Position numbers and translations under genes: made by a program. Source: Hydra vulgaris (lineage: Eukaryota; Cnidaria; Hydrozoa; Anthoathecata; Hydridae). Taken from it: a stretch of DNA of 64,000 bases. The stretch spans positions 5,160,001 through 5,224,000 of the forward strand of contig NC_088921.1 of NCBI RefSeq assembly GCF_038396675.1. Direction: 5' to 3'. The notes beneath the pieces are model-generated. The model saw only the letters and a list, made by a program, of their open reading frames with translations, had not been told where the DNA came from and searched no databases. Each line of letters opens with the position of its first letter. Position 1 is the first letter of the stretch. This document shows positions 41,188-60,987 of this stretch, in pieces.

Positions 41188-41216
41188 CACAGTGAGCCAG
41201 CTGATAGACAAAACTT
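41188..41216 (+). repeat. Transib copy 2 upstream terminus: heptamer, 13-bp spacer, nonamer-like box
   Basis: CACAGTG (41,188-41,194), a 13-bp spacer starting AGCCAG, then ACAAAACTT (41,208-41,216). Compare GGCCAG and ACAAAATGG with the same 13-bp spacing at the upstream end of the complete copy. Confidence 0.8.
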
Positions 41217-54379: not shown

Positions 54380-55891
54380 CTTGTTCTGCTGTCTCTTCTT
54401 CGTTATCCGCATTAGTACTACCAACATCTATTGGTTCATTTAATCTGTTGTCTTTTTGTAGCCTGCTCCAACGTGAAAATAGTGATCTTATTTGCTGAGT
54501 TGTTACGTATTCTGAAACTTGAAGCTCTTTTCTTATCAAAAGGTGCACCTGCTAAACTTTTTTCCAGATACTTCACCTTCCATAAAGAGTTTATATAATA
54601 TATTTTTTTGTCTCATACTATACCGGAAGGTACTGCGTGTTGGTAAAGCCCAACCTTTAACATATTTGCTAATGTCAGAACATTCTTCTTCCAATATCTT
54701 CTGTTCTGAGTTTGGTTGATAACTATGTAAGTTTCCATTCTTGATTTTAAAGTGCTGATATTGTGTCTTCCCGACATCATGTGTTCTTCTAGTTCTTCTG
54801 ATGTATGGAATGATCCATTACAAATTGGCTCAGAGCAAAAGGTAAACAAATTTAGTGATCTATCTTTGCGAAACTTTTCCTTCATATTGCTTTTAAAAAC
54901 TCTTGTTTTCTTGTCAGTATCGCTATATGGGTGTGTTAAAAACATTTGCAGATCAAAATTAACATTAGAATATTCTCGTTTAACTCCATCGCCAACTGCA
55001 TAGTACCGCCACATTGTCATATAGTTATGAAAGAACTCAAACGAATGATACTGACTTATTTTAGCTATTTTTGTTCCACTCAACTTGCTTTTGCCCTTAA
55101 TAGTGGCAACACCAACAGCAGAATTTTTCAGCCCATGTCCGTAATGTAAAGCAGTATAAATGTCCTCTGCACACATCAAATTGTTACCAGCATCAACAAA
55201 GCTACAAATCAATGACTTTGCTCCGGCAGCTTCTCAATCGCACTGATCCTTGCCACGATAAGGTTCGTTATAATCGTAGCGCTGAAGCTGTATTTGGTTA
55301 TTTTTGCTCAACAAGAGCTTCCATTATAAAGTTGCCATGGTACGATGAAGCATTGTCAGGTTTTGCAAAGAGTTTATTAACACCTGAATGGTCATGCTCA
55401 AACTTCGGAAGAACTAATTGGGCAATTGATAGTGTTTCCGAAAAACCTTGCTCACACCTATAAAGAGCTGTAAAATACACCTTTTTATGAAAATGTTGTT
55501 TTTCTTAATAAAGAAAATGTCTACATGCAGTGACATCTCCTTTTTTCCAAAATATTTTTTTTGACCTTCCCTGTATATGGATGGTAGAACTTTTTGGCAA
55601 TAGTCTTTCAACCAAAATCCAGTTTCTTCATCAAGACTTTCAAAAGCAAAAATTTTGGCTTTTTTCTGTTGACAATCACGCATTAAATGTTTTTTATAAT
55701 CAATGATATCTTTTTCAGCAATTTCGATATCATAAATAGTATCCTCGTCGGCTGAATTATTTGATGCTAATCTTTTTATCTCAACTAAGGATTTGTTTAA
55801 ATTTTTACACTCATAACAAATCTCATGATTAGGTGCTATTGAAATCTATTGCAATTGCTTGTCGGTTAAATCACTCAAAGCAAATATTGGG

Positions 55892-55896
55892 CAGTG
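55892..55896 (+). repeat. Transib target site duplication, left (CAGTG)
   Basis: Exact match to 59,257-59,261. Confidence 0.9.
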
Positions 55897-55934
55897 CACA
55901 GTGGGCCAGAATGCACTTTTACTGGACAAAATTC
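55897..55934 (+). repeat. Transib downstream terminus: heptamer, 22-bp spacer, nonamer-like box
   Basis: CACAGTG (55,897-55,903), a 22-bp spacer starting GGCCAG and ending CTGG, then ACAAAATTC (55,926-55,934). The spacer is 9 bp longer than at the other end; the extra bases lie between GGCCAG and GGACAAAAT. Confidence 0.85.
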
Positions 55935-55944
55935 ATAACTAATT

Positions 55945-56230
55945 TAATATTAGAGCTATATTCACTAAAATTAGTATGAGTACTAACATGATGTCTGCGC
56001 TTTTTATGAAGGTAATATTTTTTTATTTCGTTGCTATGGATAACTATATTTTGCTTAGCAAATACCTACTTTTGTTATCTGCAGATATTTTATAAGTGCT
56101 ATATTCACTAAATTTCGCATGAGTACCGATATGAGATCACACTTCTTACAAAAGTGATAATTTTTTAAATTTAGTTGTTATGGATACTTATATTGCTTAG
56201 TTACCGGGTACTTTCCTTAGTTACAAAGTG
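55945..56230. repeat. Transib subterminal repeats, left
   Basis: GCTATATTCACTAAA...ATGAGTAC and a later TTG(C/T)TATGGATA(A/-)CT box recur with a spacing of about 146 bp. Inverse forms of the box (TATCCATAGTAACC, TACCATAGCAACC) occur at 58,567 and 58,711 near the other end. Confidence 0.65.
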
Positions 56231-56376
56231 GTAAATTGATATTTAAATATCTTATCGGATTTTTGACCCACCTATATTGAATAAAAATTGTGTATTTAGG
56301 TAAATAATGTTTTAGGAATAATAAAAGCAAAAAATAGTGCAAGAAAACGTTATCAATTTTAAATTACATCAAAAAA

Positions 56377-58356
56377 CTATAAAACAATAATATTGTTTGA
56401 AGATTGTTTAAGTAATTGTAAAACATCTGAAGGAAATGCTTTATGATTTGTTTGGTGTGATGTTGATTTACGCAATGATGAAATAACAGGATCACTGGAA
56501 ACTAGGAGTCTATTGATAAGATCAGTATTTGTTGCTTTTCTGGATGTTTTTCGGCTGAAATTTTTGCGATAAGATTTAAAGTCTTTATTTCTAGCCTCTT
56601 GAGCTTCCTCTGACATAAGTCCGATGGATAATGTAAGGCTTTTAATTATGTCATGTCCATGTATCAATACTTTGTGAACTGATTGAGCCATGTAATACCA
56701 TGGATAAAGGGACACATATAGTCTAAAAGTGTCAAAACAATAATCCTTGAACTTTAAGCAGCCTATTTCATATCCCGAAGAGAAAGTTACGAAGATAATG
56801 TAAAATCTGAATATAAGGTTTTGGTCAATACCCAGAATTTCAGCTGTTTGTTCATATGCTGCAAAAGCACGCCTTGAGGTATTGCCATCATTACTTGTTC
56901 CAGAACCACCACTTTTAGGGAAATCAACAACAAGTCCCATTTTGTTCATAAAGTCAGTCTGAATCTTTTGTTTAGCTACAGATGTCTTTTCTTTGTGTTC
57001 TTTAGATCTTGCTTGCCACTTTCTTGTTTCTTTTTTATATGCAATGTGCAATAAAATCTCAAAAAATCGAATCCATGCATGAAGACTGGAAAGACCATAT
57101 TTGAACTCTCTGTTAGTATAATCTATATTAAGGATATCAAGACTATTCATATTTTTTGGAGAGACACCACACACTGAACAGCATTGGTATGAGTTATTTT
57201 TTTCAGATAATATTGTTTGAACCTTCCCATCAATCATTGTAAGTTCAATAATACAATTCACTTCAATAGAAGATCCGCAAACCTCTAATAAAATCATACC
57301 CAAGCTTTCTATCTCACTTTTAATGTACTGATCTTTTTCAATCACAGATTCCTTGGATTCCATTTTGTATGCAAATCTTATGGGTCTACAATAGGCTGTG
57401 GAGGACGACTTTTGATTTCTCCAAATAGGCACCTTTTCGTTGCTGTTGTTAAATCCAGTCAAATCCAATGGGACAAGACAAGTAATAAATAATGATTCTT
57501 CACGCTTTAAATCTCTGTTAATGTTGGGTTCTGATAAAACTTGTTTATAAATGCTTTGGCCAGTAGCACCATCAAAACCAGCCTTACACGTTAGTGTCAT
57601 TGTTTTTATTGCTTTGTCGTTCAATATCAAGTGCCTTAGCACAGGTTCCTGAACTGCACAGATTCTTTGCAAAGTATGAGTCATTAAATCTTTTAAAGGA
57701 ACTGAAGCTGAATAGTCCTCCACTGTTATGTTTGCAGGATAACATTTCAATTTTGCATCTCTGACATCATTGTAAGCGGGGTAGATGTTATATTCTTTCT
57801 CCAAGGCTCCGCCTCTAATCAATTGATAGGAAGCTTTTGTCAGACTTGCATCAATTATTAAAGCCAGTGCTTCGTCTGCTGAATATTTAGTTGCTTTATC
57901 TGTATTTGATATATTTAAAACATTCTTGGCAGCAATAACAACAGATTCATCTCTAAAGTTTTTATTAGCAGCAAAAAATAATTCATTGGATGAATGAGAT
58001 TCAATTAAACAAGATACACGCCGTTTTTTAGTTTTATTAGAACTATTATCAAATGCAACTGGTTTTTGACCACGTCTACTTGCAGTTGGTTCATTGTCTT
58101 TTTTTCTGACAATTAAATATTCATTAAGCCAGTTCACAAACTTCTTTTCAAAATTTTTCACAATATAGTTTGCAGATTTCATTTTTTTTTTATACAAGTA
58201 AACAAATCGTTGAACAGCATGTCTAAAATCAACGTCTTTAAAATCAGCAAATTTTGGCTGAATAAATTTTAATATATCTTCAGTAATATTTTGTTTTGAA
58301 ATACTAAGATTGTTTTTTTGGAGAAAATTATGAATGTCTAAGTTTAACAAAACCAT
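56377..58356 (-). CDS. Transib transposase, RAG1-core-like, intact (659 aa)
   Basis: Catalyses cut-and-paste transposition by nicking and hairpin formation at CAC ends; in jawed vertebrates the homologous RAG1 core performs V(D)J cleavage. First Asp is D262 in FDGATGQS and second is D376 in ELTMIDGKVQ. A C393-x2-C396 pair (QCCSVCG) and an H561/H566 pair (SVHKVLIHG) are the counterparts of the RAG1 zinc ligands. Catalytic Glu is E587 in SEEAQEARNK. RKWQ at 445-448 and GNTSRRAF at 491-498 also parallel the RAG1 core. Residues 106-113 (NKTKKRRV) are a likely nuclear signal. Length is usual for Transib. There are no stops or frameshifts; the ATG at 58,356 is the first in the frame. No RAG2-like gene is nearby. 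Confidence 0.93.
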   Translation of the reverse strand: MVLLNLDIHNFLQKNNLSISKQNITEDILKFIQPKFADFKDVDFRHAVQRFVYLYKKKMKSANYIVKNFEKKFVNWLNEYLIVRKKDNEPTASRRGQKPVAFDNSSNKTKKRRVSCLIESHSSNELFFAANKNFRDESVVIAAKNVLNISNTDKATKYSADEALALIIDASLTKASYQLIRGGALEKEYNIYPAYNDVRDAKLKCYPANITVEDYSASVPLKDLMTHTLQRICAVQEPVLRHLILNDKAIKTMTLTCKAGFDGATGQSIYKQVLSEPNINRDLKREESLFITCLVPLDLTGFNNSNEKVPIWRNQKSSSTAYCRPIRFAYKMESKESVIEKDQYIKSEIESLGMILLEVCGSSIEVNCIIELTMIDGKVQTILSEKNNSYQCCSVCGVSPKNMNSLDILNIDYTNREFKYGLSSLHAWIRFFEILLHIAYKKETRKWQARSKEHKEKTSVAKQKIQTDFMNKMGLVVDFPKSGGSGTSNDGNTSRRAFAAYEQTAEILGIDQNLIFRFYIIFVTFSSGYEIGCLKFKDYCFDTFRLYVSLYPWYYMAQSVHKVLIHGHDIIKSLTLSIGLMSEEAQEARNKDFKSYRKNFSRKTSRKATNTDLINRLLVSSDPVISSLRKSTSHQTNHKAFPSDVLQLLKQSSNNIIVL

Positions 58357-58424
58357 ATCTAAATAATTATTGTAACAAGTATTTTGTATTTAAAAGTAAA
58401 ATGTTATAATATATATGCCGCCTG

Positions 58425-58530
58425 GACTACTAATACTTGTTAGTAATTAAGTTACTACAAGTGTTAGTAATTAAAAGTAAAAGTAATTAAATTACTGTCA
58501 GTGTTAGTAATTAAATTACTAACAACTACC
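58425..58530. repeat. Short tandem repeats in the Transib leader
   Basis: GTTAGTAATTAA(G/A)TTACT units repeat three to four times with inverted character (TAGTAATTAAATTACTA), upstream of the transposase ATG. Confidence 0.7.
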
Positions 58531-59227
58531 GATAATATGTTGTTGCTATGTTATGCAAAGTAAGGTATCCATAGTAACCAAAAAAAGTAAACCTCATAAG
58601 AATTCTGAATCTCATTTTAATACATACCCCCAATATTGTGTATTTAGCGCAAGTAAAATACTGTTAAAACAACGTTAATGTAAAAATGAGTTGTTGCTAT
58701 GCAAAATTTAGTACCATAGCAACCAAGTTAAAACATACATAAAATCTGAACGGGGATTTAAGGGGACGAGCAATCAATTAAAACTCGATTGAAGCATCAT
58801 ATAGCTCAAATAAATATAAGACAACACATGGCAAATTGTGGTAATTATTAGTTATTGTGCGGCAAAAAATAAGTTTCTTAAGAAATTTTTTTTTTTAATC
58901 TGTGATTTTCAAAGTATAACTGAGATAACATGCTATGACAAATTTATTTCACACATTGGTTTTTCTTATCTCTAAATACTCTAGAATAACATGTACTAAT
59001 TTTTTGTTTCAAAAACGTAGATGTAATTGAAATATAACACAACGTTGATGTCACCGTTAATTACTTATTTATAATTTTTTTTTTATTTAATTTTATCTGA
59101 ATATTCAAATGCTTAGAGTCCTGGTAACTAAGGGATTTAATATAAATAAATTATCAATAGATTTCTCCTAATATATGTAGATACTAAAATTAAATAGGTT
59201 TTCAAGATTAAACAACTAAAATTTTTC

Positions 59228-59256
59228 CCATTTTGTCCACCTACTGGCCCACTGTG
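59228..59256 (-). repeat. Transib upstream terminus: heptamer, 13-bp spacer, nonamer-like box
   Basis: Reading on the minus strand from 59,256: CACAGTG, a 13-bp spacer starting GGCCAG, then ACAAAATGG (59,228-59,236). Confidence 0.85.
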
Positions 59257-59261
59257 CAGTG
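59257..59261 (+). repeat. Transib target site duplication, right (CAGTG)
   Basis: Exact match to 55,892-55,896. Removing the element and one copy rejoins the interrupted transposase frame (SISHC | PIFALSD). Confidence 0.9.
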
Positions 59262-60987
59262 GGAGATAGAATTAGGGTAGCTCGCAATGTAGTTAAACCG
59301 GAAATTAGTTTTGTAATATCATTTGCTGCGTTCAAATAAATTACACAGCTCTCTATTCTGGTACTTCAAAGATAAATCTTGATACATAGAGAAACTATTC
59401 ATAGCTGCAGCAGTAATATCATCCAGTCCCGCTAAACATTTTCGTTGAGATGGTTTAACAACATGAAGTATTTGCCACAAACTGCTTTCCGATAAAGGAA
59501 AGTAGTTCTCACTTCTGCAAACTTCATCATAAAATGCAATTGTATGACTAATTTTAGCTGTCAAAACTGCACGAGATATTTTATATACATCATTTGAGTC
59601 AAGTTTACTTTTTGTGACTCCATATGCAACATCTTGAAGGAGGTTTCTGTAAAGTATGAAATCGAGAAAATGTTCAGCTTTTTTCCAGTCTAGTTGATTT
59701 CGCGTAATTTCCTTTAGACAGGAATAGTTATACCTAAGTTAGCATTCTTCATTTTTCGTGCCTGGTCTATCTTGTATTTGGAGCACCCAAAAACTTTCAT
59801 AAGTAACTTCTTAGTAAATTTTTCATGTTCAATTAAACACAGAACAATATGTTTACCCATAGAGTCACTTTCTTCATAAATTTTAACAAATTTTTTTAGA
59901 TCATCAGGTACTGCATCATTGTCTAAAGTTTCCAAAGATCTATTTAAAACATTTGAGATAAAGTCTTCACTCTGATCTGGGGCAACAACTTCAGCGATCC
60001 TCTTTGCAAGCTGTACCTTGGCTCTTTCAAATTTTCTTCGTAATTTATTTTTGGTTCCATTGCTGAGATCAGCTATCGTTTTATTCTTTATCTGAAACTT
60101 AAAAGGGCTGATGTGGAGTGCTTCTGATAGGTTGTTACCAGTAGATGTAGCACCTTCAACCTTTTCTCCAGATAATAAAATTTCTTTAGGCTCAAAATCA
60201 AAATCAGTTGTATCCTCAACTAACTCTTCGTTAGTGGCAGTACTTGTTTTAGTTTGAATAAGAATGCACTTAGTTAATGCATTGGATGACAGCATCTTTT
60301 TGGAGAAACCCAGCCAATATATTAAATTTTGACAAAAATCAAAATTAGAAATATTTATTTTAAAGGTTTAGTAATTAAATTTTGTTGTTGTTGAAATACG
60401 GTTGTAAAAAAATTCTTACCAAAGTTAAATCTATGGTAAGGACATATATAGTCGTTATCAGAAAGTGATATGCACCCTCAGTTTTCTATAAGAGACTTTT
60501 CTGTCCATTCTGTCTCTTGGTGCGCCTTTAAAACTTAAAAACATAAAACTTAGATATTATGCAATGTAAACTGAGGAAATTAAACAACAATCGTTTTACA
60601 CTACTAAAGGTTTTTTTTTTTACAACTTGTAAGAGCATTTCTTACTTTAATTTTTACAAAGTTTGCTTTGACATCCAAAGTCAGATCTTGTATCTTGAAT
60701 AACCTTTTTTCATTGAAACGAGGATATGGTCCACACTTGGCATCATTAACTTTGCAAACATTTTCAACAACAACCTCTTGCTCTGACACACTTTTTTCAA
60801 CTAAGTTTTTTTTTTTTTAAATTACAATTAGCATAAAATGCTCATTCTCTGTTCTGAATAAATCAGAAGTAAATGTTCAATAAACATCAAGTTAAAAATG
60901 TTTACTGGAAAAAAAATTTTTTCAAGTCCACAATGGTATAAATGAAAAACAAAACAAAACAGATTTAGCATCATTTTGACGTAAAAT

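Follow-up and report, generated by a model that had tools for sequence, protein, structure and literature searches.

Unequal heptamer-spacer-box ends, paired short with long in the copies examined, in a Transib family of Hydra vulgaris

The catalytic cores of RAG and of the Transib transposase of Helicoverpa zea (HzTransib) contact their DNA ends at CAC and proceed by a hairpin-forming cut and paste mechanism. For the amphioxus transposon ProtoRAG, both a distal element and the length of the spacer were described to matter, and an unlike pair of ends performs best (PMC8289069, partial text). A preference for unlike ends in tested systems is reported for ProtoRAG and vertebrate RAG alike (PMC8355894 and PMC8289069, both in partial text). 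Asymmetric ends were moreover found in all Transibs of Subgroup I, in part of Subgroup II, and in an algal RAG-like transposon (PMC9435367), while 12/23-asymmetric insect Transibs, comprising Transib5 of Drosophila melanogaster as well as Transib2, N1, N2 and N3 of Anopheles gambiae, are attributed to Kapitonov and Jurka 2005 in the available portion of PMC8355894. The present analysis concerns a Transib insertion of the cnidarian Hydra vulgaris, which resides in a stretch of 64,000 nucleotides, hereafter termed the window (assembly GCF_038396675.1, contig NC_088921.1, positions 5,160,001 to 5,224,000 of the forward strand). According to sequence inspection the insertion comprises 3,360 bp (window 55897-59256), exactly as initially proposed in a first-pass annotation of this DNA, and its two ends differ in the spacing of their conserved elements.

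Both ends carry the exact V(D)J heptamer consensus CACAGTG, followed by a nonamer-like box that begins with ACAAAA. On the plus strand from 55897, the heptamer is succeeded by the 22-bp spacer GGCCAGAATGCACTTTTACTGG and the box ACAAAATTC, while on the minus strand from 59256 it is succeeded by the 13-bp spacer GGCCAGTAGGTGG and the box ACAAAATGG. Since the transposase is encoded on the minus strand, the end at 59256 constitutes the upstream end; the distance from heptamer to ACAAAA thus amounts to 13 bp at the transposase-upstream end and to 22 bp at the transposase-downstream end. Two blocks are common to both ends, namely CACAGTGGGCCAG (13 bp) and TGGACAAAAT (10 bp), and because these are separated by either 4 or 13 bp, the length difference of 9 bp is located between them. 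Heptamers, boxes, spacer lengths and the position of the additional 9 bp were hence given correctly, to the base, in the first-pass annotation. Its claim of a resemblance to 12/23 recombination signals stands with regard to the unequal heptamer-spacer-box layout but not with regard to length, as the spacers measure 13/22 and differ by 9 rather than 11 bp; exact spacers of 12 and 23 bp occur neither in the window family nor in a sister family with 13/24 ends. Compared by eye with the consensus nonamer ACAAAAACC, ACAAAATTC agrees at seven of nine positions, ACAAAATGG at six of nine and the sister-family box ACAAAACCT at seven of nine. The exact 13-bp end block occurs twice in the window. Allowing up to three mismatches yields three matches in the window against 2.08 expected, a loose test that says little; in the same search, window 41188-41200 (CACAGTGAGCCAG) deviates from the end block by a single mismatch and is not above chance.

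The unequal spacing is constant in the copies of the family examined. Thirty copies, with transposases 97-100% identical, were fetched out of 67 scored matches at 96-100%, and both ends were found in 26 of the 30. All 26 two-ended copies feature spacers of 13/22 and share one polarity, with the short end on the transposase-upstream side. A recognisable 13 end is missing from L007 and L009, and a recognisable 22 end from L016 and L023. Within the two-ended set, the tip of the 22 end is damaged in L022 and L025. Identical 5-bp target site duplications (TSDs) flank 22 of the 26, allowing for an inserted G near L030; the duplications differ in L018, L022, L025 and L026. Throughout the genome, the pattern CACAGTGGGCCAGN{3,20}GGACAAAAT has 988 exact matches (499+489), of which 437 are exactly of the 13 type, as opposed to 0 in the reversed control, and a narrower 22-type pattern, in which the final T was not required, has 479. 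These genome-wide counts are decisive for the bipartite end being real.

Pairing of inward-facing ends was assessed among the listed ends of two of 15 contigs, designated C1 and C2. On C1, 181 listed ends were available, 100 from the main end pattern (up to 68.7 Mb) and 81 from a heptamer-plus-box pattern; on C2 there were 95, up to 62.8 Mb, with end types outside the window family covered to 19.8 Mb only. C1 contains 46 inward pairs within 6 kb, of which 40 are 13/22 and 6 are 13/24, and C2 contains 26, every one 13/22. In total, all 72 inward pairs combine a short with a long end (66 of 13/22, 6 of 13/24), and like-ended pairs, sought among the same listed ends, account for none of the 72. 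The tabulation of spacers across copies recommended in the first-pass annotation, with equal spacers as the outcome that would speak against it, thus bears out the spacing difference as fixed in the family, as far as the copies examined go. On C2, two 22-type ends at 42786187 and 42789622 face outward, 3.4 kb apart, possibly representing two broken copies or a composite.

The same arrangement recurs in a second Hydra family (P0002-like), whose protein is 54-60% identical to the window transposase. Twelve loci were fetched, two of which (L065, L067) failed the end-reading script and were dropped; the two-ended copies are 13/24 in ten out of ten cases, with identical TSDs and the short end upstream. 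The box reads ACAAAACCT save for one end of L062 (ACAAAATCT), and the two spacers differ by 11 bp, just as they do in vertebrate signals. ACAAAA, whose conservation had been put forward as a touchstone, is kept between both families. A shorter element of 1,290 bp (L037) features 13/22 ends as well; its long end is 83% like that of the window family across 306 bp, and its short end only across the first 26 bp (88%). In an analogous manner, the P0002-like short end matches that of the window family at 88% in the first 26 bp, with other matches further inside. As these 26-bp matches are not accompanied by a match just inside, the module of heptamer, 13 bp and ACAAAA is kept where the adjoining noncoding sequence is not. 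The pairing of short and long ends is also seen among shorter elements, presumably non-autonomous, of at least two groups; the short element at C1:63367262-63369013 is of the 13/24 type.

A third transposase family (P0004-like) is represented by 12 places at 55-57% identity among the best listed matches. An end with a 12-bp spacer and the box GCAAAACCA is situated upstream of the transposase in 5 of these 12 listed copies, and no such end is among those listed for 6 of the 12. In the copy on contig C15 (L073 106-140; C15:4588805) the 12-bp-spacer end lies downstream and carries the box ACAAAACCA, an unexplained exception, and the upstream stretch of this copy (L074) contains no recognisable end. 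The possibility, raised by the downstream end of the C15 copy, that the family is symmetric (12/12) was considered and rejected: the 44 places of the 12-bp-spacer end include no close pair, an argument for a single such end in each element. Another repeat end, CACAGTGGCTTGTAAATTTTAACTCCAACAAAAC and its variants, was encountered on C1 (e.g. 20134685-20134718) as 15 ends with a 20-bp spacer, none of them paired on that contig; it seems to represent a further family, for which C1 yielded no partner end. In addition, three Transib-like ends with 12-bp spacers lie in tandem at C1:35055665-35055828, 69 bp apart and in one orientation. Bacterial or archaeal contigs and viral contigs gave 17 and 31 pattern matches, respectively, none of which was confirmed as a further Transib locus. 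A Rickettsiales metagenome assembly is the recorded source of P0011, a Transib relative of 47% identity, which may represent host contamination or a bacterial Transib of the sort mentioned in PMC9435367.

The window transposase is most closely related, among solved structures, to HzTransib (6pqn; E 1.1e-100 over residues 155-649), and a profile built from 66 relatives recovers HzTransib at 1e-195, amphioxus RAG1L at 6e-15 and vertebrate RAG1 at 4e-14 to 1e-10. In the profile alignment, D261, D375 and E586 align with the catalytic residues of RAG1, and among the 66 aligned relatives they are kept in 65, 64 and 66, respectively. A GRP-type motif is present near residue 95, N-terminal to the portion solved in HzTransib, with Gly95 and Arg96 each kept in 64 of the 66 aligned relatives; P0001, another record of the window family, carries Arg at position 96. 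The corresponding block of the profile aligns with GGRPR in the nonamer-binding region (NBD) of zebrafish RAG1, although this stretch is weak on its own (i-Evalue 1). An equivalent NBD with GRP was reported in both Transib subgroups (PMC9435367). Pfam returned no accepted family for the window transposase, and no RAG2-like gene was found in the element, which holds only one frame of at least 60 amino acids inside 55897-59256. With its RAG1-related DDE transposase, CAC-starting terminal inverted repeats and 5-bp TSDs, the element belongs to the Transib superfamily, in agreement with its initial assignment.

Pairwise divergence among the 26 two-ended copies has a median of 0.98% and a minimum of 0.27%. 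The frame of 659 amino acids is found in 15 of the 26, and two more possess frames of 660 and 665. The joined flanks of the window copy gave 40 scored uninterrupted matches, 33 of them across all 197 bases; hence, the Transib was inserted into repeated sequence at a clean site. Together with the TSDs, these uninterrupted sites are consistent with cut-and-paste transposition. Autonomous Transibs are usually represented in a genome by one copy or by a few at most, as stated in the available part of PMC4411706, a norm far exceeded by the 67 scored near-full-length matches of the window family. Moreover, CMC-Transib is among 14 putatively active groups of transposable elements that are enriched in Hydra AEP over strain 105, all 14 of which are expressed (PMC12220107, partial text). 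Judged from its low divergence and intact frames, the window family appears to have been active recently and may still be so. Positions of the individual features are compiled in Table 1. The surroundings, window 54613-55683 and 59319-60295, consist of repeated sequence with several minus-strand frames, none of which has a Pfam match.

Table 1. Features of the Transib insertion and its flanking duplications, in window coordinates.
Feature	Position	Strand	Basis
TSD CAGTG, left copy	55892..55896	.	Sequence
13-bp end block CACAGTGGGCCAG, long (transposase-downstream) end; heptamer CACAGTG 55897-55903	55897..55909	+	Sequence
13-bp insert AATGCACTTTTAC, long end (spacer 22 bp)	55910..55922	+	Sequence, copy comparison
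10-bp block TGGACAAAAT, long end; nonamer-like box ACAAAA begins 55926	55923..55932	+	Sequence, resampling
Transib transposase, single open frame of 659 amino acids	56377..58356	-	Open reading frame; HzTransib 6pqn match; profile alignment
10-bp block TGGACAAAAT, short end; ACAAAA 59236-59231	59230..59239	-	Sequence
4-bp insert TAGG, short end (spacer 13 bp)	59240..59243	-	Sequence, copy comparison
13-bp end block CACAGTGGGCCAG, short (transposase-upstream) end; heptamer 59256-59250	59244..59256	-	Sequence
TSD CAGTG, right copy	59257..59261	.	Sequence; uninterrupted flank matches

Taken together, the window family probably represents a recently active, autonomous cut-and-paste Transib with bipartite ends, the unlike ends of which would be synapsed through the catalytic core and an NBD-like region. 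Each end is composed of CACAGTGGGCCAG next to the cleavage site and, farther in, an ACAAAA box, with 13 bp between heptamer and box on the transposase-upstream side and 22 bp (24 bp in the sister family) on the opposite side. The catalytic core would read the heptamer block, while the N-terminal GRP region, by analogy to the NBD of RAG1, would read the box. In analogy to amphioxus ProtoRAG, one short and one long end would be brought together in the synaptic complex, with a preference for unlike ends. A stricter version, in which Hydra Transib transposases enforce this pairing, with their NBD-like domain holding two boxes, one from a short (13) and one from a long (22/24) end, and like ends being left unjoined, is unlikely; the absence of like-ended elements among the 72 listed pairs is consistent with such a pairing rule but is no test of it.

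Several observations weigh against the main interpretation, that of an active Transib with synapsis of unlike ends. The window copy itself carries Gln96 in place of the near-invariant Arg of the GRP-type motif. Since the copies of the window family share one recent ancestor, fixed pairing alone is no proof of a pairing rule, and since the ends of HzTransib are described as symmetric, with little similarity to the nonamer (PMC8289069, partial text), a Transib can work without an unequal layout. On C1, 89 of the 181 listed ends are unpaired, so that the pairing result covers elements both of whose ends fit the patterns. Within copies, variation affects 9 of 702 sites at the short end compared with 16 of 2574 in neighbouring DNA, and 16 of 936 at the long end compared with 17 of 2597, with damaged ends included in these counts. 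Such greater variation of the ends is as expected for insertions drifting after landing; nevertheless, as the ends are not better conserved within copies, the argument from conservation is founded on the comparison between families. As for expression, CMC-Transib lies outside the most expressed fifth of Hydra transposable element types (PMC12220107, partial text).

The unequal ends might also be explained without any role for unlike-end recognition. An old indel in one end could have been copied along by a transposase indifferent to spacing and to whether its two ends are alike: with window-family copies diverging by about 1%, fixation within the family would cost nothing, and the long spacer, being 22 bp in one family and 24 bp in the other, is not rigid over time. 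Such passive inheritance is nonetheless somewhat unlikely, given that both the pairing and its polarity recur in two autonomous families, that the pairing is also seen in the groups of shorter elements, and that the short-end module persists although the sequence directly interior to it is not conserved. A chance origin of the box was addressed by first-order resampling, in which window-family ends served for both families. Among 2000 resampled pairs for each family, 19 for the window family and 17 for its sister showed a shared block of at least 10 bp past the first 13 bp, at shifted offsets; at this frequency of about 1%, one copy alone is suggestive at best. Across copies, the recurrence of the ACAAAA box at both ends of the two families and of L037, and the 504+536 matches of the heptamer-plus-box pattern against 49+54 in the reversed control, make a fortuitous occurrence of the box in AT-rich DNA, outside the recognition site, very improbable.

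A tenable, though not the favoured, explanation is that the layout reflects an ordinary asymmetry between left and right ends, which sets polarity or the order of cleavage, and that its likeness to 12/23 signals is convergent rather than ancestral. Spacers of 13/22 and 13/24 instead of 12/23 fit this explanation, as does a 9-bp difference that is short of a full helical turn of DNA (about 10.5 bp). Published RAG-like ends, moreover, range from 4/13 between blocks (PMC9435367) to 27/31 (PMC8289069, partial text). On the other hand, both ends have the V(D)J consensus heptamer without a mismatch, ACAAAACCT as the box of the sister family comes close to the consensus nonamer, the transposase is a relative of RAG1 with a GRP-type motif, and 12/23 Transibs are reported from insects in the available portion of PMC8355894. 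If the stricter pairing rule held true, a 12/23-type rule would be a property of the transposase that predates RAG2 as well as the use in immunity and was retained in cnidarians. For questions about the origin of the 12/23 rule, Hydra provides a tractable animal with recent, high-copy Transib families that feature short and long ends and intact frames. Because the sister families differ in their long spacer (22 versus 24 bp), one of them with the vertebrate difference of 11 bp, it is testable in Hydra whether a transposase devoid of RAG2 prefers unlike ends and whether the box is read via the NBD-like domain.

With respect to known systems, HzTransib shares a homologous transposase core with the Hydra element, its solved chain (497 amino acids) matching only from residue 155 of 659. 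Amphioxus ProtoRAG and vertebrate RAG have in common with the Hydra element a CAC-starting heptamer, a distal second element and unequal spacers (PMC8355894 and PMC8289069, each in partial text), but they employ RAG2L or RAG2 and spacers of 27/31 or 12/23, whereas the Hydra element encodes a single frame of at least 60 amino acids. The algal transposon AanRAGL of Aureococcus anophagefferens combines a 13-bp element, a 4/13-bp spacer and a 10-bp element, and thus exhibits the same three lengths as the Hydra ends; it also shares the 5-bp TSD, and polymorphic insertions were reported for it (PMC9435367). Unlike the Hydra element, AanRAGL encodes RAG2L, and its block sequences differ beyond the first CACA (PMC9435367). 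The 12/23 Transibs of insects resemble those of Hydra in being Transibs with a heptamer, a nonamer-like box and unequal spacers, theirs being 12 or 23 within 1 bp as far as the available text of PMC8355894 goes; the Hydra families differ by their cnidarian host, spacers of 13/22 and 13/24, and hundreds of ends. Two Hydra Transibs, HvuTransib-7_HMp and HvuTransib-9_HMp, are named in PMC9435367 and belong to the same genus and superfamily as the window element; the window family is possibly identical to one of them. No report of 13/22 or 13/24 pairs in Hydra was recognised in the literature from titles and the beginnings of abstracts, which is no proof of absence. The first-pass annotation proposed that unequal ends outside the deuterostome RAG lineage, if fixed in the family, would bear on the beginnings of the 12/23 rule; such asymmetry is not new, being preceded by the insect Transibs (PMC8355894, partial text) and by those of Subgroups I and II and the algal case (PMC9435367). 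The broader claim of asymmetric Transib ends is therefore already in print, and the window family is an unusually well-populated further example, for which the present analysis contributes the number of pairs (72 out of 72 listed), a polarity shared by two families, and a conserved 26-bp short-end module.

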